Numbered from the stretch's first letter, positions 3,246 to 52,059 are shown. The stretch is DNA of 52,059 nt from Acidobacteriaceae bacterium (GCA_003162935.1 PLUW01000007.1:1-52059); one strand, 5' to 3'. Translations and numbers: made by a program. Notes: generated by a model not told the origin, from the letters alone.

Positions 3246-4502
3246 ATGAGCATTTCGCCGCGCACCATCTTCCACGTCGACATGGACGCCTTCTTCGTGT
3301 CGGTCGAAGAACTTTTCGACCCGAGCCTGAAAGGCAAGCCAGTCGTCGTCGGCGGACAGCGCGACGAGCGCGGAGTAGTCTCCGCCGCATCCTACGCCGC
3401 CCGAAAATTCGGCGTGCACTCGGCTATGCCCCTGCGCACCGCCGCGAAGCTTTGTCCGAAGGCAATTTTTGTCAACGGACATCCCGAACGCTATCGCGAG
3501 TATTCCGCCAAAGTTCACGAGGTGCTTGGGCACTTCTCTCCCTTGGTAGAGATGGCTTCGGTCGATGAGGCGTATCTCGACATGACGGGAACCGAGCGCT
3601 TGCACGGCAGACCATTGCAAGCCGCGCAGCGTCTGCATGACTCGATGAAGTCGAATACGCATTTGAACTGCTCGATCGGAATCGGCACCTCGCGCCTGAT
3701 TGCGAAAGTATCCTCAGCGAAAGCCAAGCCCAACGGAGTGTTCTGGGTGTTACCGGGAAGAGAAGCCAAATTCCTCGCGCCGCTCGCGGTTGGCGACATT
3801 CCCGGTGTAGGCAAAGTGATGGAAGAGAAGTTGCACGCGATCGGCATCCAGAAAATTGGCGACCTGGCTAAACTCGACGACCGCGATCTGGAAAATCGCT
3901 TTGGGAAATGGGGCCTGGCGCTGGCCGGAAAGTCACGCGGTGAAGACGCAGGAGGCTGGTTCGACAACGAAGTCGGAGAAAACGTCGACCCGAAATCAAT
4001 CAGCCACGAGCACACGTTCGACGAGGACACAGGCGATGCCGAGCGCCTGCAATCCACGTTGATGCGCCTCAGCGAGATGGTGGGAAGGCGCCTGCGCGAA
4101 GGCGGATATTTCGCGCGCACGTTGCAGCTGAAATTGCGCTACAAAGATTTCACAACAATCACGCGAGCGCATTCCCTCGACCAGCCGACGCAGATGGATC
4201 ACCACATCTTCGAGCAAACGCGACGTCTGTTTTTCGCCAACTGGAAGCCGGGCGCTCCGGTGCGCTTGCTCGGCGTGCAAGCGTCAAATTTCGAATCCGG
4301 TCCCGGCCAACTCGACCTGCTGGAGCCAAAGCGCGACGAGCGCTGGAAAAACGCTCTCGCCGCCGCGGACCATCTGCGCGACAAATTTGGCGAAGCGGCA
4401 ATCGGTCTCGCCCGAGGCATGAAAGGCGGATTCCGCGAGCGCATCCACGAAAATCCGGCAGCGCTGCCGGGGAAGGGAAAGAAGAAAAGGCCTGAAGCTT
4501 GA
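3246..4502 (+). CDS. dinB: DNA polymerase IV (Y-family translesion polymerase)
   Basis: The 418-residue protein carries the Y-family palm motifs: the metal-binding IFHVDMDAFFVSVE at the N-terminus, the catalytic SVDEAYLDMT around residue 105, and SIGIGTSRLIAKVSSAKAKP after it. Helix-hairpin-helix thumb sequence follows (VGDIPGVGKVMEEKL). Near the C-terminus QLDLLEP matches a beta-clamp-binding QLxLF-type motif, and a basic tail KGKKKRPEA closes the protein. The enzyme copies past DNA lesions without proofreading. I moved the start from 3168 to the ATG at 3246 because homologues begin just before FHVDMDAFF. It is transcribed toward the mlaF-like gene, and no SOS box was identified by eye. Confidence 0.93.
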   Translation: MSISPRTIFHVDMDAFFVSVEELFDPSLKGKPVVVGGQRDERGVVSAASYAARKFGVHSAMPLRTAAKLCPKAIFVNGHPERYREYSAKVHEVLGHFSPLVEMASVDEAYLDMTGTERLHGRPLQAAQRLHDSMKSNTHLNCSIGIGTSRLIAKVSSAKAKPNGVFWVLPGREAKFLAPLAVGDIPGVGKVMEEKLHAIGIQKIGDLAKLDDRDLENRFGKWGLALAGKSRGEDAGGWFDNEVGENVDPKSISHEHTFDEDTGDAERLQSTLMRLSEMVGRRLREGGYFARTLQLKLRYKDFTTITRAHSLDQPTQMDHHIFEQTRRLFFANWKPGAPVRLLGVQASNFESGPGQLDLLEPKRDERWKNALAAADHLRDKFGEAAIGLARGMKGGFRERIHENPAALPGKGKKKRPEA

Positions 4503-4535
4503 TTGAGCGCTTACAACGCCTCTGACGCAGACAAC

Positions 4536-4567
4536 CTCTGCAATCGAACCTCTGACCTCTGCAATCG
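4536..4567. repeat. Short direct repeat between convergent genes
   Basis: CTCTGCAATCG occurs twice, at 4536-4546 and 4557-4567. It fills the 65-bp gap between the stops of the convergent dinB and mlaF-like genes. No hairpin terminator is visible there. Confidence 0.4.
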
Positions 4568-5413
4568 CTACGAGATATATTCCCGAATATACTCGTCGCG
4601 CGAAGCAGCCAGCTCGTGAGCGTCGCCATCGAAGATGACCTTGGCGTCCTTCAGTATCAGAAAGCTCATCGCGACTTCGCCGCGTTGGCCTTTCGGCAGA
4701 GCCACCATCTGATTGGTGGCTTGATCGAATTCGTGAGTCGCCATGGTGAAGGCGTCCTGCAGGCGGTGCGTCACCATCAGGGCGCTGGTCTTGGCAACGT
4801 CACGCTGTTTCATGATGAGTTCCACGATGGTGTTCGAAGTCACCGGATCGAGTCCGCCGGTCGGCGAGTCGTAGAGCAGCACTTCAGGTTCGGTGATGAT
4901 GGCGCGGGCGATGGCCACGCGCCGTCTCATGCCGCCCGACAGTTCGGAGGGACGCATATCGTAAGTTCGTTCCAACTCCACGAAGCGCAGCACCTCGCGC
5001 ACTCGCCGCTCGATTTCCTCGGGGGAGAGTTTCTCTTCCATCAGACGGAAAGCGACGTTCTCATAAACCTTGAGTGAGTCGAAGAGGGCGCTTTCCTGGA
5101 ACACGATCCCCACGCGACGCCGCAGTTCGAACAGTTCCTGCTCAGACATTCGCGTGACTTCTTCGCCCAGTACGAAGATGCGTCCGCTATCGGGCCTCAA
5201 CAGTCCGATGGCGAGTTTGAGCAGAGTGCTCTTGCCAGAACCAGCGACGCCGAACACCGCCTTGGTTTCGCCATGCGCCAACCGAAACGAAATGCTGTCG
5301 AGCACCACATTGTCATCGAACGCAATGGAAACATTCTCGAACTCAATGGCGTAATCGGAGGGACTCACCACCGCGGCCGCCGTGTTCGCGCTGGGCAGAG
5401 TGGGAGCGGGCAT
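4568..5413 (-). CDS. MlaF-like ABC transporter ATP-binding protein
   Basis: The 281-residue ATPase has a Walker A motif GVAGSGKST (about residues 55-63) and a Q-loop region around IVFQESALFDSLKVYEN. It also has the signature LSGGMRRRVAIARA, a Walker B followed by a D-loop (LLYDSPTGGLDP), and an H-loop (MVTHRL). Together with the MlaE-type permease 3 bases upstream, it forms the cytoplasmic core of a phospholipid or hydrophobic-compound transporter of the Mla/Ttg2/MCE class. The residue after the Walker B Asp is Ser, where the family has the catalytic Glu. No MCE-domain (MlaD) gene follows, because dinB is convergent. Confidence 0.88.
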   Translation of the reverse strand: MPAPTLPSANTAAAVVSPSDYAIEFENVSIAFDDNVVLDSISFRLAHGETKAVFGVAGSGKSTLLKLAIGLLRPDSGRIFVLGEEVTRMSEQELFELRRRVGIVFQESALFDSLKVYENVAFRLMEEKLSPEEIERRVREVLRFVELERTYDMRPSELSGGMRRRVAIARAIITEPEVLLYDSPTGGLDPVTSNTIVELIMKQRDVAKTSALMVTHRLQDAFTMATHEFDQATNQMVALPKGQRGEVAMSFLILKDAKVIFDGDAHELAASRDEYIREYIS

Positions 5414-5416
5414 GAC

Positions 5417-6211
5417 TTACCTGTACCCAAAGATCGCGAAGATCAACTTGGTCACGAAGAAATCCACCACTAGAATCAGCACCGAGGAAGCGACCACGGC
5501 CTGGGTCGTGGATCGTCCGACTCCCTGGGTCCCGCCGCGCGTCGACATGCCGTAATAACAACCGACGGTCGAAATGATGAACCCGAACAGCACCGGCTTG
5601 ATGAGGCCGGTGAACACATCGCGGAACACAAGCGTCTGCCACACCGAGGTCCAATACTGCTGCGTGTCGAGCCCGAACAGCAGATGCGCCACCCCATAGC
5701 CGCCGATCAGCCCGAGCAGGTCCGCGATAATGGTCAGAAAAAAGAGCATGAAGGCGGTGGCCCCGATGCGCGGCGTAATCAGCTTCTTGGTGGGGTCGGT
5801 GCCCAGGGCGCGCATGGCATCGATCTGCTCGGTCACGATCATGGAGCCCAATTCGCTCGCCATGCCGGAAGCGTTGCGCCCCGCCACCATCAGCCCAGTG
5901 ATCAGCGGCCCCAGTTCGGTGACCATGCCGAGCGACACGAGCTGGCCGATCAGCGTGACCCCGCCAAATCGTTGCAACGTGCTGGCGGAGTTCAGCGCCA
6001 ACAGCGCGCCGACGGAGAGTCCCGTGAGAATGACGATGGGGAGGGAACCGACGCCGATCAGGTCCGCCTGCTGCAGCATATCTCCCATGTAAAGCGGACG
6101 GCGAAAGAAATTCGCGAGGGACTGCGCTGAGAGCAGCGTGTATTCCTGAACCGCCAGCGCAAATTCTTTGGCGACTTCAAAGGGCGAGATCAGTTCGAGT
6201 TCGAGCGCCAT
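5417..6211 (-). CDS. MlaE-like ABC transporter permease
   Basis: The 264-residue integral membrane protein matches the MlaE/YrbE permease family. It has an N-terminal amphipathic segment, then PLYMGDMLQQADLIGVGSLPIVILTGLSVG. The conserved AGRNASGMASELGSMIVTEQIDAMRALGTDP follows, a cytoplasmic coupling region that is a hallmark of this family. At least four further membrane segments complete it. It sits 3 bases upstream of the ATPase gene, so the pair is co-transcribed. It lies downstream of the NtrC-like regulator, separated by a 136-bp gap with a palindromic repeat. Confidence 0.9.
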   Translation of the reverse strand: MALELELISPFEVAKEFALAVQEYTLLSAQSLANFFRRPLYMGDMLQQADLIGVGSLPIVILTGLSVGALLALNSASTLQRFGGVTLIGQLVSLGMVTELGPLITGLMVAGRNASGMASELGSMIVTEQIDAMRALGTDPTKKLITPRIGATAFMLFFLTIIADLLGLIGGYGVAHLLFGLDTQQYWTSVWQTLVFRDVFTGLIKPVLFGFIISTVGCYYGMSTRGGTQGVGRSTTQAVVASSVLILVVDFFVTKLIFAIFGYR

Positions 6212-40830: not shown

Positions 40831-40868
40831 GGGCGCGTAGCTCAGTTGGTAGAGCAACGCCCTTTTAA
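40831..40868 (+). tRNA. tRNA-Lys(UUU), 5' half only
   Basis: The bases fold as the acceptor strand GGGCGCG, TA, a D arm GCTC-AGTTGGTA-GAGC, A, the anticodon-stem strand ACGCC and the loop CTTTTAA with anticodon TTT. The next bases (AGTGC...) do not complete the anticodon stem. No variable loop, T arm (GGTTCGA) or acceptor 3' strand follows. The gene is cut in the anticodon loop exactly where phage-type sequence begins. That marks an integration site, and the other half should lie at the far end of the element. Confidence 0.8.
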
Positions 40869-40960: not shown

Positions 40961-40981
40961 GTCTGCAATGGAGTCTGCAAA
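40961..40981. repeat. Tandem GTCTGCAA direct repeats (attachment-arm candidate)
   Basis: GTCTGCAA occurs at 40961-40968 and 40973-40980. The 11-mer GAGTCTGCAAA (40971-40981) recurs inverted at 48159-48169. Sites like this are typical arm-type binding sites for a tyrosine recombinase, but no integrase is seen in the window. Confidence 0.35.
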
Positions 40982-41071: not shown

Positions 41072-42829
41072 ATGGGCGCTGATCCGATCGCGCAACCGAA
41101 AAAAGCAACGCTCTTAGGCGGGCTCCTGGCCGAGCGCAGACGGCAGAAGGCGCGCAACTCATTCCTGGCGTACTGCGAGTACGTTTACCCGCCTTACAAG
41201 CCGAGCCGTCACCATAAGTTCATGGTCGCGAAGTTAGAGCGCATCGAACGCAGTGAGCAACCGCGGACGATGATCAGCCTTCCGCCACAGCACGGCAAGT
41301 CACTAACGGCAAGCATCCTGTTCGCTTGCTGGTATCTCGGTCGCAATTCGCGGCGCCGCGTGGTCGACGCGACCTATGGCGACGATCGAGCAATGGACCT
41401 TGGCCGCGCTGTGCTGCGGACGCTGCGAGATGCACGTCACCGCGAAATCTTCCCCGAGTGCGAAGTAGACGACAGCGCAGCGAGCAGCAACCGCGTTGAT
41501 CTTGTCGCCGGCGGCGGTTTCCTCGCAGTCTCGCGCAATGGCGCACTCACCGGGCGCTCTGCCGATCTGATCATCATTGACGACGTTTTCAAAGACGACA
41601 AAGAAGCGCGCAGCGCGGCGATCCGTCGCGAGGTCATTGACTGGTATTGTCGCGTCGCGCTCACGCGCCTTGCTCCTGATGGCTCGGTAATTCTAGTGGG
41701 CACACGATGGGGATGCGGCGATCTGTTCGATTACCTGCTCACCGAACGCCAGGAGGAAAGCTGGGACGTTACAAACCTGGCCGCACTCGCAGAAGCAAAC
41801 GACCCGCTAGGGCGCAGCGAAGGCGAGCCCTTATGGCCCGAGCGCTACGGTTTGGAAGTTCTGACGCAGAAGCGCTTTGAGGTGGGCTCTGCCGCGTGGA
41901 CGTGCCTCTATATGGGGCAGCCGGCCGCGGCCGAAGGCGTGGTCTGGCATCGCGAGTGGTGGCAGTACTACACCGTCGCGCCTGAAAAGTTTGTCCGCAA
42001 GATCGTCTCGCTGGATCCGGCATTCAAAACTGGCCAGCAGAACGATTTCTCGGTCATGCAAGCTTGGGGGAAGACGGAAACGAGTTTCTATCTGCTCGCG
42101 TGCTGGCGCGGGCGCGTGGAATATCCCAAGCTGAAAACCATGCTAATCGCGTTTGCCGAGCAATGGCGCCCGGATGCGGTTTTGATCGAAGACACGGCAA
42201 GCGGTCAGAGTTTGATTCAAGAGTTGCGCGCTACCACGTCGCTACCTTTGCGGCCGATCAATCCAGATCGCGACAAAGTAGCGCGGGCGCAGGCGTGCAC
42301 TCCGCAACTGGAGTGCGGGAGCGTCTATCTGCCACAGGCGGCGCCGTGGCTCAATGAGTTTTTGGACGAAGTGAGCGCTTTCCCGCGCGCGCCGCACGAT
42401 GATCAGCTCGATTGCGCCAGTCAAGCGCTGAATTACTTCCGCGAGGATGGCGGGCTCTACGTGTGGGCTTCGGCGATGGCTGCAGCGCACGCGGCCGGGG
42501 ATGCGGCGACTGAGCAGCAAAAGGCGCAACTGGAGAAGTTCGCGAGTCATGGATTGCCGTCGGTTCCTTATCACGGTCCGCTGGGCCCGGCAAGGACGCG
42601 GGAAGAGGCAGAGGAACAGTTCACAACCTTGGCAGAGGCGCAGAAGGCAGCATTGAGCGGTGAAGCGCGCGGCCAATTCACTGCGGCGCGCAACTTAGCC
42701 AAGGCGAAGGCGGCCGGGAAGAGTCTGCAGCGGTGTCCCGCGTGCAAAGCATCTTGCGCCGGTACGAGCGAGTTTTCGCACTGCAATCTGTGCGGATGGG
42801 ATTCTAGGACTAGGGCGGTCGCACAATGA
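41072..42829 (+). CDS. Phage terminase large subunit with C-terminal zinc ribbon
   Basis: The packaging motor protein has 585 residues from ATG 41072; TTG 41036 adds 12. Its N-terminal ATPase has a Walker A-like LPPQHGKSLT near residue 72 and a Walker B LIIIDDVFKD near 165, which resembles the psiM2-type terminase family. The nuclease half has SLDPAF near residue 312, followed by QNDFSVM, and a final acidic DDQLDC near 442. A C-terminal tail of about 130 residues ends in a zinc ribbon (CPACKASCAG...CNLCGW) that ordinary terminases lack. Its stop overlaps the next ATG by 4 bases. In phages it cuts and pumps DNA through a portal, but no portal is seen here. Confidence 0.88.
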   Translation: MGADPIAQPKKATLLGGLLAERRRQKARNSFLAYCEYVYPPYKPSRHHKFMVAKLERIERSEQPRTMISLPPQHGKSLTASILFACWYLGRNSRRRVVDATYGDDRAMDLGRAVLRTLRDARHREIFPECEVDDSAASSNRVDLVAGGGFLAVSRNGALTGRSADLIIIDDVFKDDKEARSAAIRREVIDWYCRVALTRLAPDGSVILVGTRWGCGDLFDYLLTERQEESWDVTNLAALAEANDPLGRSEGEPLWPERYGLEVLTQKRFEVGSAAWTCLYMGQPAAAEGVVWHREWWQYYTVAPEKFVRKIVSLDPAFKTGQQNDFSVMQAWGKTETSFYLLACWRGRVEYPKLKTMLIAFAEQWRPDAVLIEDTASGQSLIQELRATTSLPLRPINPDRDKVARAQACTPQLECGSVYLPQAAPWLNEFLDEVSAFPRAPHDDQLDCASQALNYFREDGGLYVWASAMAAAHAAGDAATEQQKAQLEKFASHGLPSVPYHGPLGPARTREEAEEQFTTLAEAQKAALSGEARGQFTAARNLAKAKAAGKSLQRCPACKASCAGTSEFSHCNLCGWDSRTRAVAQ

Positions 42830-43107
42830 AAGCACCGGTGCGAGACAAGACGTTCGCGGCGTTCGCGGCTGCAGTGCGGGCATCGTGCGAGGAGCACGCG
42901 CAGCGCAAAAACTATACAAACTCCAATGTTGACGGCGAATCCCTGTTGACGGTGATCATGCAGCAGATTGGGATTCACCGCCAGCACTGCATCGCGGAGA
43001 TCGTCACAAAGGCAATCGAGTACTTAAAAACTCCGCGGCGCGTGCTGCTCGAAAAGATCGCGGGATGGGCGTTTATTTTGTGGCGAGAAACTGAGGATGC
43101 GCAATGA
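42826..43107 (+). CDS. Hypothetical phage protein, 93 aa
   Basis: This gene overlaps the terminase stop as ATGA and ends in an ATGA overlap with the next gene, so it is translationally coupled on both sides. The 93 residues are mostly helical with charged termini (VRASCEEHAQRKNYTNSNVDGES and IVTKAIEYLKTPRRVLLEKIAGWAFILW). No motif is recognised. Confidence 0.65.
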   Translation: MKAPVRDKTFAAFAAAVRASCEEHAQRKNYTNSNVDGESLLTVIMQQIGIHRQHCIAEIVTKAIEYLKTPRRVLLEKIAGWAFILWRETEDAQ

Positions 43108-43397
43108 ACGCGCCAGAGACAGCTTGGTATGAACGTCTGCTCTTTGGCGCAGCGTTCGCGAAACTGCTGGCCAGGGCGCAAGGTCTGCCCGCACCTTGGA
43201 CCATTGACCTGGTGGACGGAGAATTACGACCGCTGGAGCATATTGTCTTCGAGCATGGGATAGACGCCGATCACGTCACGCCGATCACGTCTTTTTGCAA
43301 TTGGCCGGCAGACTGGCGATTGCCTCTAAGTCTGATTCTCACGAGCGGTGACGAAGATATCGTGGTAGTGGAAACGGAGGAGTACTGTGCGCAGTGA
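43104..43397 (+). CDS. Hypothetical phage protein, 97 aa
   Basis: The gene overlaps the stop of the previous one by 4 bases and runs 11 bases past the start of the zinc-ribbon gene in another frame. The 97 residues contain aromatic and acidic stretches (WTIDLVDGELRPLEHIVFEHGIDADHV and DEDIVVVETEEY). I see no recognised domain. The dense overlaps support its reality. Confidence 0.6.
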   Translation: MNAPETAWYERLLFGAAFAKLLARAQGLPAPWTIDLVDGELRPLEHIVFEHGIDADHVTPITSFCNWPADWRLPLSLILTSGDEDIVVVETEEYCAQ

Positions 43398-43731
43398 TGA
43401 ACTTTTCGGCGGGACAACCGGGAGCGGCTATGACAAACCTTTCGGAGTTGAGCGCGGGAGCGGTTACGAACCTAAGGCGATCGCGACGCAGAGCCCGCTC
43501 GTGTGCCCGCGCTGCGGGAAACCGTGCGCCGGCACAGCCGAGCGCAAAACGTGCGCCAGTTGCGGCTTTTCGACGGTAGCGCAGCAAGCGGAGAAGGCGA
43601 CGGCAAACCAGTGTCCGAAATGTTCGCAGCCGTTGAGCGTTATCGGAGATAGCAAGCGCTGCAATGCGTGCGGATGGACCTTGCAGTCGGAACCGGCATC
43701 CGTTCAGCGGAGAACATTGCCAGTAAGTTGA
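43387..43731 (+). CDS. Double zinc-ribbon phage protein
   Basis: The 114-residue protein starts at GTG 43387 with GGAGG about 7 bases upstream. Two similar zinc ribbons follow: CPRCGKPCAGTAERKTCASCGF (residues 38-59) and CPKCSQPLSVIGDSKRCNACGW (residues 77-98). The first also resembles the tail of the terminase large subunit (CPACKASCAG...CNLCGW). The N-terminal 35 residues are Gly-rich and repetitive. It may bind DNA or RNA; that is inference. It closes the terminase operon. Confidence 0.7.
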   Translation: MRSDELFGGTTGSGYDKPFGVERGSGYEPKAIATQSPLVCPRCGKPCAGTAERKTCASCGFSTVAQQAEKATANQCPKCSQPLSVIGDSKRCNACGWTLQSEPASVQRRTLPVS

Positions 43732-43898
43732 GCGACGCGCGCGAGTAGGCGTTGTTCGATTTCCTCGCGGCGTTCTTTCATGGCGCGCAAGTCTTCGCGT
43801 TCCCGCTCCTGGCGTTGCTGGCATAAGCGGCTAATCTTCTCTCGACCGGTGCGCGCGCCTTCGATCTGTGCCGCTGTTCGTTGTCTCGCAGTCTGCAT
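43704..43898 (-). CDS. Small antisense coiled-coil protein (candidate)
   Basis: From ATG 43898 there are 64 residues, very rich in Arg, Glu and Gln (EREREDLRAMKERREEIEQRLLARVAQL), a likely coiled coil. A GGGGG run lies 5 bases before the ATG. The codon use is sensible for this genome. It is on the opposite strand to all nearby element genes, and its end overlaps the zinc-ribbon gene by 28 bases. It could be a regulator or a chance ORF. Confidence 0.4.
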   Translation of the reverse strand: MQTARQRTAAQIEGARTGREKISRLCQQRQEREREDLRAMKERREEIEQRLLARVAQLTGNVLR

Positions 43899-44028
43899 TT
43901 TTTCCCCCGACAATTTCGCGACCATCGTAGTCGGAGAATCGTCGCCGCGTCAAAGACGGCCAAAAAAATAAAGTGGTTGCGCTCGCTCGCGCGTCGGCTA
44001 CGATGCGAAAAAGGGAGAACAGAAAACG

Positions 44029-44187
44029 ATGGACGCAGACGAGATCCAACAGCTTGTAACTAGCATGGCGATACCGCGACCGCCAGCAAGTGCAGCGGAC
44101 GCGATCAAGTTGCAATGGCTCACCCTTCAACTCTTGCAGTCGATCGCGATCTCGCTGGCGACGCAGGCAGCGACTAACAGCAAGTAA
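44029..44187 (+). CDS. Hypothetical small phage protein, 52 aa
   Basis: This gene is too short for the ORF track. Translated it gives MDADEIQQLVTSMAIPRPPAS and ends with a helical QWLTLQLLQSIAISLATQAATNSK. An AGGGAGA motif lies 10 bases upstream of the ATG, and the codon choice is good. It is followed by the coiled-coil gene at 44231. The hydrophobic C-terminal helix could pack with a partner. Function is unknown. Confidence 0.55.
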   Translation: MDADEIQQLVTSMAIPRPPASAADAIKLQWLTLQLLQSIAISLATQAATNSK

Positions 44188-44230
44188 TAACCCTTCCCGC
44201 TTGGGGAGTTACTCAGGAGAGCAAACGACG

Positions 44231-44785
44231 ATGGCAACGGCAACCGCAGCACCTGAAGAGTTAACGGCGACAATCGATCAGCGCATCATCGCGGCGACTG
44301 CGAAGGTCCGAAATATCGAGCAACGCATCGCAGAGGCCGCGGAAGAGTTGGCCGGACTGCGGACGGAATATTCGGGAGCGTGCACGAGGCTTGCAGGCGG
44401 TGCGAATGGCGCTGGCGATGATGTCGAACGCTATCGCGCGAAGATGCTGAAAGTCGAGGCGAAGATTTCAGGATTGAGACAGTTGCTTGCGATTCCGAAG
44501 GGCGAGCTCGATCGGTTCACTCGGGAGCGCGCAGAGTTGGCCGCGCGCGAGGAAGAGGCGCGCCAAGCGGAAGCGATCGCGGAGGAGACGGAGTTCATCG
44601 CCAACAAGATCGAGGCGGGATTAAAGGCGATCGCAGAGCGCGACAAACAGCAAGCGATCATTGACGCGATCGTGGGGCATCTGAGAACGCGCCAGTATCT
44701 ACATGCGCGGAACCAGTCTGACGGGCGAAATGCGGCTTCGCGGATCGAGCGCCTAGCGGTCGGAATCCATACGTCCGCGGCCTAG
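44231..44785 (+). CDS. Coiled-coil phage protein, 184 aa
   Basis: From ATG 44231 (GGAG 10 bases upstream) the 184 residues are almost wholly helical. Long Ala/Glu/Arg heptad-like stretches are seen, for example KVRNIEQRIAEAAEELAGLRTEYSGACTRL, then RFTRERAELAAREEEARQAEAIAEETEFIANKI. Proteins with this composition can be scaffolding or structural in phages, but no such family is recognised. The ORF-track extension to 44090 reads through a neighbouring gene and is rejected. Confidence 0.65.
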   Translation: MATATAAPEELTATIDQRIIAATAKVRNIEQRIAEAAEELAGLRTEYSGACTRLAGGANGAGDDVERYRAKMLKVEAKISGLRQLLAIPKGELDRFTRERAELAAREEEARQAEAIAEETEFIANKIEAGLKAIAERDKQQAIIDAIVGHLRTRQYLHARNQSDGRNAASRIERLAVGIHTSAA

Positions 44786-44824
44786 AACCGCAAGAAAAAT
44801 TCAGCGACAAAGGAGAGACAGGTT

Positions 44825-45457
44825 ATGCAGAGTAGAGCGGCAATTTTGGACGCGATCAATAAGACGATTACACGTTCGGAGAGCTTGACGGAGCAGGCGA
44901 AGGCCACGCACCGCGGAAGTGTTGAAGCGGCATTTTCTGGCGCGGGTTTTCCCGCGGAGACCAAGGCGAAACTGGCCATGATCAGAAAGATTCAGCCAAA
45001 CAGCGGTTTTGCGAAGGGCAGCGTTGCCGACACGTTTGGTTCGACGGGCCATCCGTCCGATGAACTGTTTCCGCAGGGCACGGGCGAGATTCACGAGTTC
45101 TCTGCAGAGGATCTCGTAAGCGTGGGACCGAAGCCGGACGCGCCCGAATACTACGCGCGATTTCGCGAAATAATGGCTTCGCAATATCCGACGATTCAGG
45201 CGATGCAGAACGTCACACCGCCGACGCCTGGCGGCACGTTTGAACAGCGTTACAGCCAAAGCACGGCGCCGCGATACGAGCCCACGTCCGGCCCGCCAAT
45301 TGTCGAATCGCCGGACAAGGCGCGCACCTCGACGCTGCAGAAATCTACAGCACAAACGCGACTGGCGAAGCTGGCACGATTGGAAGAGCTTGTCACTTTG
45401 TTGGCGCTTTACGCTGGCGGAAACGATGAGGCAGGCGCCGCGCTCGGGATTCGGTAA
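44825..45457 (+). CDS. Hypothetical phage protein, 210 aa
   Basis: The 210-residue product follows GGAGA 9 bases upstream and begins MQSRAAILDAINKTITRSES. It has helical termini and a Gly/Pro-rich middle (TPPTPGGTFEQRYSQSTAPRYEPTSG). Hydrophobicity is low and no motif is recognised. The position, after the coiled-coil gene and before a strong terminator, is where a head or structural gene might be, but no similarity supports that. Confidence 0.6.
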   Translation: MQSRAAILDAINKTITRSESLTEQAKATHRGSVEAAFSGAGFPAETKAKLAMIRKIQPNSGFAKGSVADTFGSTGHPSDELFPQGTGEIHEFSAEDLVSVGPKPDAPEYYARFREIMASQYPTIQAMQNVTPPTPGGTFEQRYSQSTAPRYEPTSGPPIVESPDKARTSTLQKSTAQTRLAKLARLEELVTLLALYAGGNDEAGAALGIR

Positions 45458-45528
45458 AGAGAAATTCGCCGCGGGGTGGATGGCCTCCATGGCCGTGGCG
45501 GGTTGCGCTGTTTGACGAGTCGCAGCGC

Positions 45529-45562
45529 AAAAGCGGGAGCGGGCGGCACCGCTCCTGCTTTT
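45529..45562 (+). terminator. Terminator-like hairpin after the 210-aa gene
   Basis: AAAAGCGGGAGCGG (45529-45542) and CCGCTCCTGCTTTT (45549-45562) form a 14-bp stem with one G-T pair. The A-rich left side makes it bidirectional. It lies about 70 bases after the stop. Confidence 0.7.
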
Positions 45563-45639
45563 AGTTTACGTTCGCCAAGGTGCTCCGTTTCTCACTTGGC
45601 GCGGCCTGCCGGCGGCGTCCATCCGCTGTGAGTGGGCAA

Positions 45640-45694
45640 CAGGTGGCGGGAGTTTTTGGTGATTCATAGCCACCAATCCTCCTCCCGTCACCTG
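45640..45694. ncRNA. Two-tier hairpin, candidate structured RNA
   Basis: The outer stem CAGGTGGCGGGAG (45640-45652) pairs with CTCCCGTCACCTG (45682-45694), with one mismatch over 13 bp. The inner stem TTGGTG pairs with CACCAA around the loop. It is independent of the flanking genes and of the two terminators. Confidence 0.45.
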
Positions 45695-45744
45695 GAAAAA
45701 GTTGGTGCTGGGCGTGCTTTCTCCTTGTGCGCCGCGGCGCTAGG

Positions 45745-45770
45745 GGCGGTCTAAACGGGCCGCCTTTTTT
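45745..45770 (+). terminator. Terminator hairpin preceding the 64-aa gene
   Basis: GGCGG (45745-45749) and CCGCC (45760-45764) form a 5-bp stem followed by six T bases. It stops just 13 bases before the next gene start, so it could end a small RNA or act as an attenuator. Confidence 0.6.
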
Positions 45771-45782
45771 AAAGGCCCATGA

Positions 45783-45977
45783 ATGGCACAGCAGAACTTC
45801 GCAAAATACTTACCAACTCCGCACGGCGGGAAACCACTGGCGACACTCAGTCAGCGCGCGGTCTATGCACTGTGGCGTGCGGACCTGATCCGGCACCTGG
45901 AAACCATCGCGAAGATCACGAGCGCGGCGCGCGACTGGCAGTTGGCGATTCAGATTCGCAAGTTGCTCCCTCGCTGA
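45783..45977 (+). CDS. Small basic phage protein, 64 aa
   Basis: The 64 residues are basic and amphipathic, MAQQNFAKYLPTPHGGKPLATLSQ then WRADLIRHLETIAKITSAARDWQLAIQIRKLLP. I chose this start over the 79-residue ORF at 45779, which is a shifted frame with poor composition. A transcript reading through the preceding terminator would be needed unless the promoter lies within the gap. Function is unknown. Confidence 0.5.
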   Translation: MAQQNFAKYLPTPHGGKPLATLSQRAVYALWRADLIRHLETIAKITSAARDWQLAIQIRKLLPR

Positions 45978-46014
45978 AAGTTTTCCACAGGGAACTCCAC
46001 AGTGGGAACTCAAA

Positions 46015-46683
46015 ATGAGACGCGCCTGTGTTTTCAATGAGTTGAAAAACGAAAAGTTGGAGTTTTCCCACAAGCCCGCTTTCTTCTCCCGTCGCCGCTT
46101 TTCTGACGCCCCAAGGATCAAGCTAAGAGCTATCATCCCAGACTGGGACCAGATGCAGACCTACCAGCTTGAAACTTTCCTGTCCGAATCGTTCCCCACA
46201 CCGCCAGACTATTTCTGCTGTACCACGATACACGGAATTGTGGACCCGGACGCGGGACCACTGCTCTACATCTTTTCTCGAAAGACCGCGCTATCGGTTC
46301 AGAAGGACGAACACTTCAAAACAGCGGTGCAGCCGCTTCAACAAGTAGGTCAGCTAAAAATCGTGCTAGCGGACGAGCCTCTGTCTTTTGAGGAGTGGGA
46401 TGCATTTTGTTGGCAAGAGGTCCGCGCGTCTGCGGTCATCACCGACCTGCTGGCGGTGAAAAAGCTAGATCATCGATTGATGTTACTCAATCCGACCCAA
46501 GTATTAACCAACGACCCCAAAAGCATCGTCCGCCGTTCGTCCCAAACCGGCCGCAACCGTCCCGAAGGAACGGTTTCCGAGATCTGCGATCACTGTCTTG
46601 ACGTGCTCACTCGTCACCCTGACGGAGATCGCGCTGCGATCAGATATGACATGCTAATGGGCCCGCACTCTGGTTACAGGTGA
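46015..46683 (+). CDS. Hypothetical protein, 222 aa
   Basis: The 222 residues show no known motif. An N-terminal basic block is followed by a mixed alpha/beta part (KTALSVQKDEHFKTAVQPLQQVGQLKIVLADEPLSFEEWDAF). GC content is visibly lower than in the surrounding element genes, so it may be a separately acquired cargo gene. The start could instead be the internal ATG at residue 47 (MQTYQLETFL). Function is unknown. Confidence 0.55.
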   Translation: MRRACVFNELKNEKLEFSHKPAFFSRRRFSDAPRIKLRAIIPDWDQMQTYQLETFLSESFPTPPDYFCCTTIHGIVDPDAGPLLYIFSRKTALSVQKDEHFKTAVQPLQQVGQLKIVLADEPLSFEEWDAFCWQEVRASAVITDLLAVKKLDHRLMLLNPTQVLTNDPKSIVRRSSQTGRNRPEGTVSEICDHCLDVLTRHPDGDRAAIRYDMLMGPHSGYR

Positions 46684-46715
46684 GCGTTTTGACTGGCGCG
46701 CGACAACCCGAAACG

Positions 46716-47229
46716 CTACTTGTTGATGATCGCTTTAATCTGTGCAACGGTCAGTTCGTGCCGATGCTGATAATCACCGGCTGCACGCCACTTAGAGAGC
46801 ATCTCGACGTAGCGGCCGGTAGTCTGCGAATGCGTATTTAATTCGCAGTCCTTCAATATCTTCGTCCAACGTTGTCCCTCGTCCCTTAAAAACCGGATGA
46901 AAACGTAGTGAGCAGTCTCGTTGTTCCCGTCGAAGCCATGGAAGGTCACGTCTTCAAGAGCCAACCCTTCCTTGTCGGCCAAGTGCTCGAAGCTCTGGCG
47001 CAGCGATGTGTGCATATCGAGTACGTCATAGACGTACCGGCAATCATCGAGGCTCATTTCCTCAACGATCTCCTGGGAAAACTTGCTCATACAACAGCGT
47101 GTACCCGTCTTCGAGAATCTTGCGGTTCTTCGCGAAGTGCTCACCGTTAGGGTGATAGAGCTTTTCGAGGATCGCAAACTGATTGGCTAGTTGTAGACGT
47201 TCCACTGGTGTGAGAGTTTCAACTTTCAT
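46716..47229 (-). pseudogene. YfbU-like gene, split by a frameshift
   Basis: From ATG 47229 (AAGGATGG upstream) the first frame gives MKVETLTPVERLQLANQFAILEKLY up to GYTLLYEQVFPGDR and stop 47062. A second frame continues with FSQEIVEEMSLDDCRYVYDVLDMHTSL and HGFDGNNETAHYVFIRFLRDEGQRW to 46716. Joined, they give about 170 residues, matching the E. coli YfbU layout (164 residues; ERLILSNQY... DIMEMYHAL... FLGFDAATEARYLGYVRF). The frame change falls near 47062-47100, next to TTTTCCC. It may be a real mutation, a sequencing error, or a recoding site. The function of YfbU is not established. Confidence 0.7.
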
Positions 47230-47550
47230 TTTTCCATCCTTCCCTTCGCGTCGCTGACGCCGATCCTTTACAGAACCATCTAGTGTAAACGCGGGCAACG
47301 TCTACAGCCTACGCCCGACGCGCACAGCCTAGCCAGGGCAGCGCTCCAGCGCCCGAGCGACCGATTACACCCCCAAAACCGTCCTAGACCCTCTACAGCG
47401 CTTCTTACTCCCCAAAACTACGACTCCCTGCTCACTTACAACGCCCGGAACCCCGTTGCGCAACACATCACGCGATTACGCAACAGATTCGCAACAATCT
47501 ATAATCCGGATCAGAACCGTAGTTACTCGCAACACGCGGAGAATCACGCT
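47230..47550. other. Gene-free region with C-rich tract and operator-like repeats
   Basis: There is no gene in these 320 bases. The left two thirds is C-rich with no structure that I can read. The right third carries the CGCAAC repeats and a promoter in front of the HTH gene, listed separately. Confidence 0.45.
47455..47533 (+). promoter_or_regulatory. CGCAAC operator array with TATAAT promoter
   Basis: The palindrome GTTGCGCAAC (47455-47464) is followed by CGCAAC at 47479, 47490 and 47528. A perfect TATAAT lies at 47500-47505, 18 bases after TTACGC (47476-47481). The repeats flank this promoter, which points at the HTH gene starting at 47551. An 11-mer ATCACGCGATT (47467-47477) recurs inverted after that gene. 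Confidence 0.5.
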
Positions 47551-48081
47551 ATGCCTCCAAGTTGCACTATCTGCCGTCATCCTGAGAAGTTGGCCATCGA
47601 GGATTTGCTCTTGCGCAACAGGCTGAGTTTGCGCGTTGTAGCGGAAAGAACCGGCGTGAGCGCGTGGGCCCTGCATCGACACAAGCGGCACCTGTCGCAA
47701 GCGGTGATTGACGCGGCACAGGTTGCGGGCGCCAGTTCTCTCCTGGCGCGAATTGAGGCGGTGCTAGCGGAAGTGCAGGACATTGCGACAAAGGCGAAGC
47801 GCTCGAAGGACTGGCCCGCGGCGCTGCAAGCGCTGAAAGAGTTGCGCGCCTGCTTACAACTGATCGGTCGCGTGAGCGGTGAGTTACAGCAGCAGCCAAC
47901 CGCGGGCGAACTGCATCTGCATCGCCACCAGCATGTGCACCTGGCACCGACACAGAGCCCGCATGAGCTCGATCTGCAGATCGCAGAGCACGTGCGCGAG
48001 GCGACGGATAACTTCAATCCTCGCGAGATAGAGCGACTCAAGCAACTTGTGGAAAGCGCTCTGCCGGCGTTGCCGGCGTAG
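47551..48081 (+). CDS. HTH protein resembling a small terminase subunit or regulator
   Basis: The 176-residue protein begins with a CxxC-containing segment (SCTICRHPEKLAIEDLLLRN). A helix-turn-helix follows (SLRVVAERTGVSAWALHRHKRHLS) at about residues 33-56. Helical sequence then leads to a His-rich patch (ELHLHRHQHVHLAPTQ) near residue 133. The CxxC plus HTH layout is seen in DNA-recognition proteins annotated in phages near terminase genes, but it sits 5 kb from the large subunit here. A regulator is equally likely. GGAGA lies about 8 bases upstream, and its promoter carries CGCAAC sites. Confidence 0.6.
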   Translation: MPPSCTICRHPEKLAIEDLLLRNRLSLRVVAERTGVSAWALHRHKRHLSQAVIDAAQVAGASSLLARIEAVLAEVQDIATKAKRSKDWPAALQALKELRACLQLIGRVSGELQQQPTAGELHLHRHQHVHLAPTQSPHELDLQIAEHVREATDNFNPREIERLKQLVESALPALPA

Positions 48082-48115
48082 GTTACTCACGCCTAGCGCA
48101 GGCGTTGTTCTACGC

Positions 48116-48126
48116 AATCGCGTGAT
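48116..48126. repeat. AATCGCGTGAT, inverted copy of the operator-region 11-mer
   Basis: This 11-mer is the exact reverse complement of ATCACGCGATT at 47467-47477. The two copies flank the HTH gene. Confidence 0.4.
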
Positions 48127-48158
48127 TCCATGCGGCTAAAACTGGCCGTTGCAAACTC

Positions 48159-48169
48159 TTTGCAGACTC
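48159..48169. repeat. TTTGCAGACTC, inverted copy of the left-end 11-mer
   Basis: This is the exact reverse complement of GAGTCTGCAAA at 40971-40981, near the element left end. It lies in the gap after the HTH gene. Confidence 0.35.
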
Positions 48170-48205
48170 ACTCCCGTTCCGAAGGTTTTTCCGCGTCGAG
48201 GGTCA

Positions 48206-49060
48206 TCAGTTTCCGAGTAGTAAGACTTTATCCGTCTGCCATTGGCCGCGAATCAGAAAGCCGATCGTGACTTTATCCCCCGCCGAACGGTTCACTAGTG
48301 CCGCTGCTAGCTCCATTGGAGTCCTTACGGGCTTGCCGTCCACCGCGTTAATTACATCGCCTACATGGATGCCAGCGAGCGCCGCTACGCTGTTCGGCGC
48401 TTCGTCCGTAATCTCCGCCCCTGGATTCGCTCCCACCGTGACCATGATTCCGAGTGAGGATATTTTCATTCCTGCGCTTGGAGCCGTTGGAGCCGACTGA
48501 CGCGGCGATGCAGGCGCGTGCTCTGTGCGGCCAAAGCTGTACACGATTCCGACTGAGGCTCGGACGTTGTTCTGTGTTACCGATGGACCGCCTGTGATGT
48601 TGTGCCGCGTGAAAACGTAGTCAGCCGATGCCCGAACAGAAAGTGGGCCAGACACTTTCCATTGCACTCCACCGCCGAACGCTCCCGCTAGGCTGTCTTG
48701 AGACAGGGACATTCCTGACGCGCTCCCGGTGAGATGATCGCCGCCGATCAGCGCATGAACAAAGAACGGTTTGAAATTGATGCGCGGGCCGGCGCCATAG
48801 GAATAGTCCGTCACAGACACACCGCTGAGATTCTTGTAATAGCCCGCTACGTCGGCCTCTGCCGCGAACCACTTGTTAAAGTTGCCAGAGATTGATGTTT
48901 CCCAACCATTGATGCTCTGACGGGACTTTGTGAGTCCGTTTGTATCGATACTTCCATAGGAGTATCCGCCAAATAGATCAGCGCGTGAGTCTTGGGCGAC
49001 GGCGAAACCGGAAACGACAAGGCACACTAGGAAGGCACAGATGCAGCGCACGGTAATCAC
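48206..49060 (-). CDS. Outer-membrane beta-barrel fused to a PDZ domain
   Basis: The 284-residue protein has a signal peptide (CICAFLVCLVVSGFAVAQ). An eight-stranded OmpA/OprF-like barrel follows (LFGGYSYGSIDTNGLTKSRQSINGWETSISGNFNKWFAAEADVAGYY through VRASVGIVYSF). A Pro/Ala linker near residue 185 leads to a C-terminal PDZ domain (GIMVTVGANPGAEITDEAPNSVAALAGIHVGDVINAVDGKPV). The barrel would sit in the outer membrane with the PDZ domain in the periplasm. It is the only minus-strand membrane gene of the element and may be a cargo gene that alters the host envelope. Confidence 0.75.
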   Translation of the reverse strand: MITVRCICAFLVCLVVSGFAVAQDSRADLFGGYSYGSIDTNGLTKSRQSINGWETSISGNFNKWFAAEADVAGYYKNLSGVSVTDYSYGAGPRINFKPFFVHALIGGDHLTGSASGMSLSQDSLAGAFGGGVQWKVSGPLSVRASADYVFTRHNITGGPSVTQNNVRASVGIVYSFGRTEHAPASPRQSAPTAPSAGMKISSLGIMVTVGANPGAEITDEAPNSVAALAGIHVGDVINAVDGKPVRTPMELAAALVNRSAGDKVTIGFLIRGQWQTDKVLLLGN

Positions 49061-49083
49061 CTCTTTCAGGGAACCTACCTATG

Positions 49084-49134
49084 GCACATCAACGCGTTTG
49101 TTCTGTCTATGGGGCGGGTCACATCTTGATGTGC
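49084..49134. repeat. GCACATCAA/TTGATGTGC inverted repeat
   Basis: A perfect 9-bp inverted repeat (49084-49092 and 49126-49134) lies in the divergent gap between the barrel-PDZ gene and the gene at 49330. It could be an operator or part of a stem. Confidence 0.45.
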
Positions 49135-49246
49135 GGCAATCACGCACAGCCGGAACACGAGCCAGACTGCCTTCCATTCGGACCGATTCGTGACAGAAAA
49201 AACGCTGGCGATCGCGTCCAATTCGGCTAGTATGTGGATATAAGAA

Positions 49247-49326
49247 CCCGAAGCGCGCTTGTAACTGCAGCACCAGCGGGACGCCCTACCGTTTCGCTGG
49301 CTTCGGGACTCACTGTAGGGAGTGAG
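49247..49326 (+). ncRNA. Structured 5' leader of the 267-aa gene (candidate)
   Basis: CCCGAAG (49247-49253) pairs with CTTCGGG (49301-49307). Inside it CCAGCG (49273-49278) pairs with CGCTGG (49295-49300), so the right strands are stacked without a gap. Next to it CTCACT (49309-49314) pairs with AGTGAG (49321-49326) and places the AGGGAG ribosome site in and beside the loop. The ATG follows at 49330. TATAAG at 49239-49244 could be the -10 box. Confidence 0.45.
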
Positions 49327-49329
49327 CAG

Positions 49330-50133
49330 ATGCCGCGCAGATCATCACCGCTTCGCAACGTGCCACAGATCGTTTCTCAGATCCCCCGGTTTGCCTACCG
49401 ATCGCCGGAAGTGCTGAATCCCGAAGTTGAAAAGCGTTTTTTGCTGGTGCTCTTGGGACAACTCACTCCCGATGAGCACGCTGAGCTTGAGAGACTGTTG
49501 ACGTGCTCCGAGACGGAGCGCAAAGCGGCTGCGGGCTCGGCAATCGTGCGCTCGATTCACGCAAAAGTGGATGAGTTACTGATCAATCAAGTGGTCACAT
49601 TCGGCTGGACTCTTACACAAACCGCGATCGCGAGCGACCGCTTCAAGGCATGGGATAACGATCTGGACGGGCCAGACAAAATCATGCGATTCGCGCGAGC
49701 ATGGAAGCGCTCGGTACTTATCTCGCAGGGCAAACAGAACGCACCGGACGATGATCCGACGCTGTATGTCTTCAAGCAAGAGACAGTCCCACAACTGCGC
49801 CAAGTGCTCAGGCAGTTACATCATTGGTTCGCCGTTCAACGCATGAGCGTCTCCAACGATGCGCTCATTAAGCAGTTTGAAACGATCGTGCGGAGCGATG
49901 CTGGCGTGTTCCACTTGGCCGGCAGCAACCTGGATTTATGGCTCGCCTTTCTGCGCTCTGATCCGCGATATCTTCTGACCGCGATCAGCGCCAGTCGTCA
50001 CAAGCCGGGCTCTATGTTCGATGATTGGTGGACGTGGTTGCGGCGTCGGAATGATGCGAAAAAGACGCGTGACAACATCTCGAAACTAGCCCCGATTGCC
50101 TCTGCTGTTTTTGTTCCCCGCCTGAATCCCTAA
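49330..50133 (+). CDS. Hypothetical phage-element protein, 267 aa
   Basis: From ATG 49330 (AGGGAG upstream) the 267 residues are mostly helical. An N-terminal Arg/Pro segment is followed by LNPEVEKRFLLVLLGQLTPDEHAELERLLTCSETERKAAAGSA, then Trp-rich segments near the C-terminus (FDDWWTWLRRRNDAKK). The ORF-track GTG start at 49234 lies inside the structured leader and is rejected. No family is recognised. Its leader structure suggests post-transcriptional control. Confidence 0.6.
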   Translation: MPRRSSPLRNVPQIVSQIPRFAYRSPEVLNPEVEKRFLLVLLGQLTPDEHAELERLLTCSETERKAAAGSAIVRSIHAKVDELLINQVVTFGWTLTQTAIASDRFKAWDNDLDGPDKIMRFARAWKRSVLISQGKQNAPDDDPTLYVFKQETVPQLRQVLRQLHHWFAVQRMSVSNDALIKQFETIVRSDAGVFHLAGSNLDLWLAFLRSDPRYLLTAISASRHKPGSMFDDWWTWLRRRNDAKKTRDNISKLAPIASAVFVPRLNP

Positions 50134-50197
50134 GCAGCACTTTTCCACAAAGCTTCCCCCTTTTTGACTCTTACGAGGGGGTAGATTGCCGTGCTGC
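50134..50197. terminator. Nested hairpin between the 267-aa gene and XRE gene
   Basis: GCAGCAC (50134-50140) pairs with GTGCTGC (50191-50197), and CCCCC (50156-50160) pairs with GGGGG (50177-50181) inside it. It starts right at the stop codon of the 267-aa gene and overlaps the probable XRE promoter region. A terminator, an operator region, or both are possible. Confidence 0.45.
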
Positions 50198-50217
50198 GCC
50201 CGATCTAACATCCGCCC

Positions 50218-50451
50218 ATGATTGCGACTGAGACTCCCGAATATCTGCGGCGCGTGCGCGGTTTTCTTGGCCTGACGCTGCGAGGCGTGGAATTGGCAAC
50301 CGGGATTCCCGCCTATCGGTTGTCCGAAGCGGAATCAGGCCGACGCGCGCTCACTCAGGGGCAGTCCATCACTCTCGCCAATTTCTACCGGCAGCGAATT
50401 TCACATGTGCGGATGCAGGCGAGGGAAGGCTGCTTGGAGGGATTCGTTTAA
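50218..50451 (+). CDS. XRE-family HTH regulator
   Basis: The 77-residue protein holds a Cro/C1-type helix-turn-helix: EYLRRVRGFLGLTLRGVELATGIPAYRLSEAESGRRALTQGQSITLANFY. It is a single-domain DNA-binding protein of the phage repressor or Cro class. There is no evident ribosome site; GATCTAACATCCGCCCATG suggests a short or leaderless message. It heads a cluster of small co-directional genes that ends in the CHC2 protein and may control it. Confidence 0.7.
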   Translation: MIATETPEYLRRVRGFLGLTLRGVELATGIPAYRLSEAESGRRALTQGQSITLANFYRQRISHVRMQAREGCLEGFV

Positions 50452-50507
50452 AGGAAAGCGCGGCGCCCACGGTCCGGTCAGGTTGCGGGCGCCACAAAGG
50501 AGAAACG

Positions 50508-50894
50508 ATGGAACGGCTTGAACGTAACACGACAGCGGTTGAGGAGCAAGTTTCGCGACTGCGTAGTCATCTCCTCGGTGCCGCGGCCGTCCTGCGCGAC
50601 CGCTCCCGTAATTTGCTATCGGGAAATCATGCGAAGAGATTGCGACGGCTGGCAGCGCTGATCGAGGCGGCAACTCCTGGCCTGGCCATCCTTGTCGGGT
50701 TACCAGATCATCCGTCGGACCGGCGCGACCTGGACGCGATCGAGGCGTCACGGAATGCGCTGTGCATGGCCTGCAGGCTCCCGAGGGAACGTCACACGAC
50801 GCGCGGGCGATGCATGACGGGCAAAGGGCGGTGGAGTCCGGTCTCCGCGCAACTCTTGCTTCTTGAGAATCCGAAAGTGGAGGTGCGCGCGTGA
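50508..50894 (+). CDS. Hypothetical element protein, 128 aa
   Basis: The 128 residues begin with a helical, charged stretch (MERLERNTTAVEEQVSRLRSHLLGAAAVLRDRSR). A Pro-rich, basic middle and a C-terminal Leu-rich helix follow. GGAGA lies 5 bases before the ATG, and its end overlaps the next start as GTGA. No domain is recognised. A role in replication or regulation is guessed only from position. Confidence 0.55.
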   Translation: MERLERNTTAVEEQVSRLRSHLLGAAAVLRDRSRNLLSGNHAKRLRRLAALIEAATPGLAILVGLPDHPSDRRDLDAIEASRNALCMACRLPRERHTTRGRCMTGKGRWSPVSAQLLLLENPKVEVRA

Positions 50895-51214
50895 CTGGCA
50901 TTATCCCCGATGAGACGCAAGAGGGCCGCATCCTTCAACTACTGAAGCAGAGCGGGACGTGGGTATCTGCGCGTGATTTATCCGAAATCAGCCTTCAATA
51001 CTGCGCGAGGATCAATGGGCTTCGCAAGCGCGGCTTCGCGATCGAAAACAAGTTGGAAGTTTCCGACAGCGGGCGCCGTCGCGGGTTTTATAGGCTGAAA
51101 CCGCTCCCAGCGATGCCGCGGAGCGCTCCGAAACCAATACGCGAGACAGAGCCACAGGAGCGTCTTTTCAGTGAAGCGGTGCGTTATCGCGATCCGGAAG
51201 AGGTCGAACGGTGA
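50891..51214 (+). CDS. Winged-helix phage protein
   Basis: The 107-residue protein starts at GTG 50891 within a GTGA overlap and ends in another GTGA overlap with the CHC2 gene. It has a winged-helix-like DNA-binding part (GRILQLLKQSGTWVSARDLSEISLQYCARINGLRKRGFAIENKLEVSDSGRRRGFYRLKP, residues 12-70) and a charged tail. It resembles phage proteins annotated as helix-turn-helix domain proteins. It may help load the replication protein encoded next. Confidence 0.65.
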   Translation: MTGIIPDETQEGRILQLLKQSGTWVSARDLSEISLQYCARINGLRKRGFAIENKLEVSDSGRRRGFYRLKPLPAMPRSAPKPIRETEPQERLFSEAVRYRDPEEVER

Positions 51215-52059
51215 GCGGAGAAATTCCCGACATGGCCTTCATACGACACCGGATTCCGATTGCAGAAGTAGCGAGCGCGCTGGGGATTCGCATCGCGGGG
51301 CGCAATGTCGCGCACTGCTGGCGCGTTGGAGCACACCAAAACGGGGACCGCACCGCGAGTTTATCTTTCTACCGCAACCGCGCGAAGTGTCACGGCTGCG
51401 ATGCGGATTCGATGTCTGTGATTGATCTGGTGATCAAGCATGAGGAGTTCGAGCCGAGCCGTGCGCTGCGAGAGGCGACGGCATGGATCTGCGCGCGCTG
51501 GCCAGTTCCAACGATTGCGAAGAACGCGAAACTGTCACGGCCGGAACGCTGGGCAACGTCCCCGGTAGGGCTTTCGTCTTTTCCGCTGGAGATGTTTGTG
51601 CGCAGCGGCGTTTGGGCGGCGCTTGACGATGCGGGGCGCGCGATTCTACCAGTCCTATTCTGCTTTGCCGAGAACGGCGAAGTTTCGATCTCGTATCGCG
51701 GGCTCGCCCGCTATTCCGGCAAGGCGTCTGACACGACGATCGCGAAAGTCTTGCAGCGCTTCGCGCAGATCGGGTTGCTGCAGGTGTTACCGAAGGCGCG
51801 CGAGAATTTCCGCGACGTTAACCACTACCGTTTCACTCCTGACAGTCCGAAATTTCAGACCATGCTTTCGAGTGTGCATGAGCGCCTAAGAACGGAGCGC
51901 GACAAAGAGCGCACTCTCCGGTCTGAGTTGAGGGTGACTGCCAGTTCTAACCGTTCAACCAACCCCAAGGGCAACCCCCAAGGCGGCCCAACCCATACCC
52001 AGGTAAACCCTCTCTCCACCGTAGTGGAGTGTGAGCAAAGTGCACGCTCCACCGTGCTG
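51211..52059 (+). CDS. CHC2 zinc-finger and winged-helix replication protein, 3' end outside window
   Basis: This open frame is missing from the ORF track because it runs off the window. It starts at GTG 51211 in a GTGA overlap and gives at least 283 residues. The N-terminal part resembles the DnaG-type CHC2 zinc finger (HCWRVGAHQNGDRTASLSFY, then KCHGCDADSMSVIDLV), with a C-x5-H spacing where DnaG has C-x2-H. A winged-helix-like region follows (YSGKASDTTIAKVLQRFAQIGLLQV), then a charged linker. It could be a primase-like or replication-initiation protein of the element. The missing C-terminus would decide between primase and initiator. Confidence 0.7.
   Translation, partial: MSGEIPDMAFIRHRIPIAEVASALGIRIAGRNVAHCWRVGAHQNGDRTASLSFYRNRAKCHGCDADSMSVIDLVIKHEEFEPSRALREATAWICARWPVPTIAKNAKLSRPERWATSPVGLSSFPLEMFVRSGVWAALDDAGRAILPVLFCFAENGEVSISYRGLARYSGKASDTTIAKVLQRFAQIGLLQVLPKARENFRDVNHYRFTPDSPKFQTMLSSVHERLRTERDKERTLRSELRVTASSNRSTNPKGNPQGGPTHTQVNPLSTVVECEQSARSTVL

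Follow-up and report, generated by a model that had tools for sequence, protein, structure and literature searches.

Layout and borders of the element

The window analysed here (PLUW01000007.1:1–52059) covers all but the last 2,190 bases of contig C95, which is 54,249 bp long in total and belongs to a Terriglobia (Acidobacteriota) metagenome-assembled genome (MAG; 3.64 Mb in 123 contigs, 83% complete). The right-hand part of this contig holds an element of ~13.4 kb, running from the 5′ half of a tRNA-Lys gene at 40831 to a second copy of the tRNA start at 54225–54249, that begins with the gene for a large terminase subunit (TerL) and ends with that for a tyrosine integrase. The window stops at 52059 at a two-base NN scaffold gap, and a further 2,190 bases follow on the contig. 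Judged from the assembled sequence, the element is complete apart from two small NN gaps and is integrated in the host chromosome. All coordinates are those of the contig, and features lie on the plus strand unless a minus strand is given.

The left attachment site consists of the first 38 nt of the host tRNA-Lys(TTT) gene (40831–40868), and the right copy, which lies outside the window, consists of 25 nt (54225–54249) identical to the tRNA-Lys start. An earlier interpretation of the DNA made without database searches (the sequence-only reading) had described a phage-like element from 41072 onwards; its left border is at 40831 instead, and the element holds host-like cargo as well (a β-barrel/PDZ protein and a frameshifted YfbU gene). 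With the 3′ half of the tRNA-Lys gene missing, ARAGORN does not report a tRNA in the window. A search of the host MAG for this half gave nothing, and the host flank on the right was therefore not located. An intact tRNA-Lys gene stands at the corresponding place, behind the same host gene, in the same-genus relatives G417, G414, G408 and G403.

Inside the left end lies a pair of RTCTGCAA repeats (40961–40980, with copies at 40961 and 40973), and a matching pair lies inside the right end (54159 and 54170), with a spacing of 11–12 bp over both pairs. The 54 kb contig has no further pair of this kind, and similar pairs are found at the ends of sister elements in G416, G412 and G414. They look like arm-type sites of the integrase, a role that we regard as putative. 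The element thus has its own site-specific integrase and flanking attachment repeats, as do the phage-inducible chromosomal islands (PICIs).

Relatives of the element clarify how it is inserted. In G416 the same left end is found on one contig and the same integrase end (88–90% amino-acid identity) on another, where it is joined to a full tRNA-Lys gene. A relative in G414 is inserted in tRNA-Arg(TCT), with half a tRNA before the left end and a complete tRNA after the integrase end. The element therefore carries a tRNA 5′ half and rebuilds the tRNA gene at its integrase end. As shown by this comparison, the integrase recombines within the tRNA 5′ half, leaving a truncated tRNA at the TerL end and a full one at the integrase end. 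In the genus, sister elements integrate in this way at both tRNA-Lys and tRNA-Arg.

The terminase genes

TerL (585 residues, 41072–42829) is the first gene of the element and starts 200 bp inside the junction with the host. The assignment is secure (Terminase_6C, E = 2e-16, and Terminase_6N, E = 2e-12, in Pfam; phrog_38, E = 1e-109, in PHROGs), and the residues Lys76 and Asp170-Asp171 (Walker A and B) together with Asp315, Glu373 and Asp443-Asp444, which include the three nuclease acids, are invariant in the alignments. The protein ends in a zinc ribbon (42700–42826) that resembles the ribbons of a 114-residue protein encoded nearby (43387–43731); a similar C-terminal ribbon is present on the TerL of G414 (L058).

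The closest TerL by identity (49% over the aligned part) is that of the peat phage contig L169 (IMGVR_UViG_3300037883_000070). This phage also has a homologue of the TerS-like protein described below directly before TerL. The two loci differ in that genes for an NlpC/P60 protein and a tail protein follow TerL in L169, which is a phage and not an island, and the tree does not prove a sister relation between the two TerL proteins. An origin of the element's TerL from L169-type phages was considered and dropped: these phages are nearest by identity, yet the tree leaves the window TerL unplaced.

A 176-residue protein (47551–48081) with an N-terminal Cys/His motif, a helix-turn-helix (HTH) and a coiled coil is a putative small terminase (TerS), an assignment that we consider probable because its homologues stand directly before TerL in phages. 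In Caudoviricetes vir515, Meiothermus phage MMP7 and Thermus phage Riverbug the homologue is immediately upstream of TerL with overlapping gene ends (E values from 2e-8 to 2e-12), and in Methanoculleus virus L4768 it precedes TerL with two genes between. The AlphaFold model of the protein has a mean predicted local distance difference test score of 57.6, and a fold search with it places Sf6 TerS at ranks 2 and 4 with E values above 3, which is not significant. A sequence profile search of the PDB with the TerS-like family matched designed helical bundles and unrelated HTH regulators only.

Terminase genes with no structural genes in sight were also seen elsewhere. Several Terriglobia loci (L059 4498–10044, L060 6043–9231, L061, L062 and L068) carry a cassette of ParB-N/DNA methylase, DUF5681 and TerL, behind which some of them have DUF2924 and a large serine recombinase. 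These cassettes, a second kind of terminase-bearing element, are like the window's element in having a TerL of the same superfamily (33–35% identity) with no structural genes beside it, and differ in their gene partners, in their recombinase and in a TerL that forms a separate clade. A second cassette, TerS-like–TerL–DUF5763-like, likewise lacks structural genes in the Acidobacteriota MAGs G401 and bog_206 (L056 15684–18217; L249 ~3360–5725).

Regulators, replication gene and integrase end

The right-hand part of the element encodes regulators and replication functions. A 77-residue HTH regulator (50218–50451, weak matches) is followed by an uncharacterized protein of 128 residues with no family (50508–50894), a 107-residue winged-helix regulator (50891–51214) that is conserved in the G416 sister (49% identity) and a replication-initiator-like protein (51211–52059, cut by the NN gap) with a CHC2-type zinc finger and a winged helix. 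The sequence-only reading had called the last of these a CHC2 replication protein, which is plausible, with weak matches (phrog_360 primase, E = 0.027; phrog_270 replication initiation, E = 0.0015). In the G416 sister the same slot holds a Prim-Pol/PriCT protein, so that replication genes are exchanged. Three CTCCACCGT-type repeats, one of which forms a perfect hairpin, lie near the 3′ end of the replication gene (52014–52118) and constitute a candidate origin of replication.

Portal or capsid genes just beyond 52059 had been named in advance as the finding that would overturn the sequence-only reading. The remaining 2,190 bp hold instead an excisionase-like gene, an open reading frame (ORF) of 115–128 residues, an ORF of 49 residues, the tyrosine integrase gene and the tRNA-Lys half. 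The excisionase-like product is a small HTH protein conserved in G416, with a weak match to phrog_66 (excisionase/regulator, E = 0.003) and none in Pfam. The integrase (53003–54209; phrog_1, E = 1e-27; Pfam Phage_integrase) is split by the second N gap, and both sides match one 418-residue relative.

Absence of particle genes

No PHROGs or Pfam match to portal, protease, capsid, tail or lysis families was obtained among the called genes of the element, including the part past the window. Together with the tRNA-Lys junction, these searches confirm the earlier observation of a TerL gene beside the junction with no portal, capsid or tail genes. The element resembles PICIs in being without structural or lysis genes at a size near 15 kb. 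The major capsid protein, protease, portal and connectors that capsid-forming PICIs (cf-PICIs) encode are absent, as is the portal, capsid, tail and lysis set that a tailed prophage has between its attachment sites, two small NN gaps apart. Nor was there a PHROGs or Pfam match in the element to the gene set of P4 (alpha primase, sid, psu and delta).

A full or defective prophage with structural proteins that escape recognition could also account for the absence, as the sequence-only reading had allowed. In favour of it, about 87% of PHROGs are without known function and some genes of the element have no relatives. The element is, however, bounded on both sides at 13.4 kb and could not accommodate a set of portal, capsid and tail genes; tailed phages require tail genes, a major capsid protein and a portal protein at least ~400 residues long. 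Because no structural family is matched and no protein other than TerL and the integrase exceeds 299 residues, a tailed phage with unrecognized structural genes is very unlikely, and we reject this part of the earlier proposal.

Sister elements and the tRNA-Lys hotspot

A second species, G412, has the same left end (89%) at tRNA-Lys, followed by the first 13 codons of TerL, at which point the contig ends; the two versions of these codons read MGADPTAQPKKAT and MGADPIAQPKKAT. The IMG/VR contig L031 carries the same element with two differences in 7.6 kb, preceded by a foreign integrase and not by the host gene. We considered whether its integrase–tRNA half–TerL junction could be a circular attP and dropped this candidate, since the true right end of contig C95 bears a different integrase. 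A 63% relative of the foreign integrase adjoins an intact tRNA-Lys gene in G404, and for this reason we interpret L031 as two elements in a tandem array. Comparison thus places the element in more than one context and species, and by the same evidence tRNA-Lys is a hotspot with tandem occupation at which the element is present in two settings. The neighbouring tRNA-Lys element in L031 (1–11260) encodes its own tyrosine integrase, a serine resolvase, a secreted repeat protein of >1,850 residues and a PDZ protein. In G402 (L094) a 2.1 kb remnant with a C-terminal piece of an integrase lies between a half and a full tRNA-Lys gene; from its structure it is a decayed member of the same kind.

The core common to the window element and its G416 sister consists of the winged-helix protein, the excisionase-like gene and the integrase, with the replication gene swapped. 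At the end equivalent to that of TerL, the G416 sister (L091 1–12450) encodes AbiEi/AbiEii, a phospholipase D (PLD)-family nuclease and a trypsin-like protease, and a DNA methylase-like ORF is found further in.

This arrangement bears on the possibility that the terminase serves interference, with TerL and TerS competing with or cutting the DNA of infecting phages as a host defence trait. The sister island does have defence genes at the same end, and hotspots of antiviral systems are known in phage satellites (PMC9122126). No match to PADLOC defence families was obtained among the island proteins tested, however, and the papers searched gave no precedent for an intact TerS and TerL pair used as defence only. 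We consider this explanation improbable.

The element as a probable phage satellite

We interpret the element as a PICI-like phage satellite that has its own whole terminase and borrows portal, capsid, tail and lysis functions, and assign this reading a probability of about 0.5. It fits because the element combines a tRNA-targeted integrase, an excisionase-like regulator, a putative replication initiator, a TerS-like protein and TerL with the lack of structural genes. Upon induction the island would excise and replicate from its own initiator. The TerS-like protein would recognize the island's own DNA, and the island TerL would dock on the portal of helper procapsids and pump in island DNA in place of helper DNA; the portal, head, tail and lysis functions would come from a helper phage. 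HK97-type portals are present in eight of the 24 genomes of the genus, which makes the phages that encode them possible helpers. The sequence-only reading had also proposed a satellite that redirects helper packaging: the anatomy fits, and we infer the packaging role itself from gene content.

PICIs such as the Staphylococcus aureus pathogenicity islands and EcCICFT073 share with the element a size near 15 kb, a site-specific integrase and, as far as weak matches in the element indicate, an excisionase/AlpA-like regulator and a replication initiator of their own, and like it lack structural and lysis genes; some encode a TerS homologue (PMC6092414). The element differs in its own TerL at the far attachment end, in its other tRNA-half strategy and in its host phylum, Acidobacteriota. 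Its host is known only as a MAG, and we describe the element as PICI-like in anatomy and do not claim PICI membership. The cf-PICIs and the Streptomyces satellites encode both TerS and TerL, as the element does (TerL with certainty, TerS probably), but, unlike it, they have genes for a portal, a major capsid protein and other head components as well (PMC10690885). The Pseudomonas satellite AH14b, a 16.8 kb element with its own primase, is packaged in the capsids of its helper and differs in having no terminase gene (PMC4936722).

In known satellites, packaging is redirected through an exchanged or modulated TerS, through a copy of the helper's cos site or through heads that the satellite builds itself, and the named ones have either TerS only or TerS and TerL along with a capsid block. 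In the reviews and papers searched, which did not extend to the paper on virion-encapsidated integrative mobile elements or the original tycheposon paper, no satellite with TerL but without portal or capsid is described, and no satellite family from Acidobacteriota was found in them. The element may tentatively represent such a class, an Acidobacteriota family with its own TerS and TerL whose foreign motor docks on a helper portal; we put this somewhat short of even. If true, it would be a packaging strategy between those of the TerS-only PICIs and the cf-PICIs, and would open satellite biology in Acidobacteriota, which are abundant soil bacteria. It would also mean that the contact between motor and portal can be pirated, so that the specificity of this contact could be probed directly. 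The tRNA hotspot points to a site where islands of this kind are exchanged with defence islands and tandem arrays.

Several observations weigh against the satellite reading. The TerS assignment is based on gene position and a weak homology, and in the TerL tree the window protein forms a long branch with no supported sister. Besides the TerS-like gene, no known capsid-redirecting or interference gene was found in the element, which is a further difference from PICIs. A search of IMG/VR viral contigs with two end patterns gave no attP junction, and the host MAG (83% complete) holds no helper prophage as judged by one portal family (HK97-type). TerL genes with no structural neighbours also occur in other contexts of the class.

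Further points of this kind lead to the main rival explanation, in which the tRNA-integrating island moves by other means and its terminase genes are leftovers of an ancestral prophage, or captured cargo, with no packaging. The G416 sister lacks TerL and has AbiE, the PLD nuclease and the protease in its place, so TerL may be exchangeable cargo. The TerS-like gene and TerL are separated by 4.7 kb, which is not the layout of a phage terminase operon, the YfbU cargo gene is broken, and the orphan TerS-like/TerL/DUF5763-like cassettes of G401 and bog_206 have no structural genes either. On the other hand, neither terminase gene is truncated and the motifs of both are intact, even though decay is visible elsewhere in the element, and TerL is the first gene of the element in two species. 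We regard this alternative as a substantial possibility, if clearly below even.

Other genes of the left and middle part

Immediately downstream of TerL are a small gene for 93 residues (42826–43107), whose start overlaps the TerL stop and which has no family match, one for 97 residues with no assigned function (43104–43397) and that for the 114-residue double zinc-ribbon protein, which gives weak zinc-ribbon matches only. They are followed by genes for a coiled-coil-like protein of 184 residues (44231–44785), an uncharacterized protein of 210 residues (44825–45457) with no relatives among 399 genomes of the class or 50,697 phage records, a small ORF of 64 residues (45783–45977) and an uncharacterized protein of 222 residues (46015–46683). 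Beyond the TerS-like gene lie a secreted β-barrel and PDZ protein that is host-like cargo (48206–49060, minus strand) and the 299-residue protein, which is uncharacterized and has no Pfam or PHROGs family (49234–50133). The YfbU-domain gene (46716–47298, minus strand) is a frameshifted cargo pseudogene in two overlapping frames, and the IMG/VR copy L031, which was assembled independently, has the identical single frameshift.

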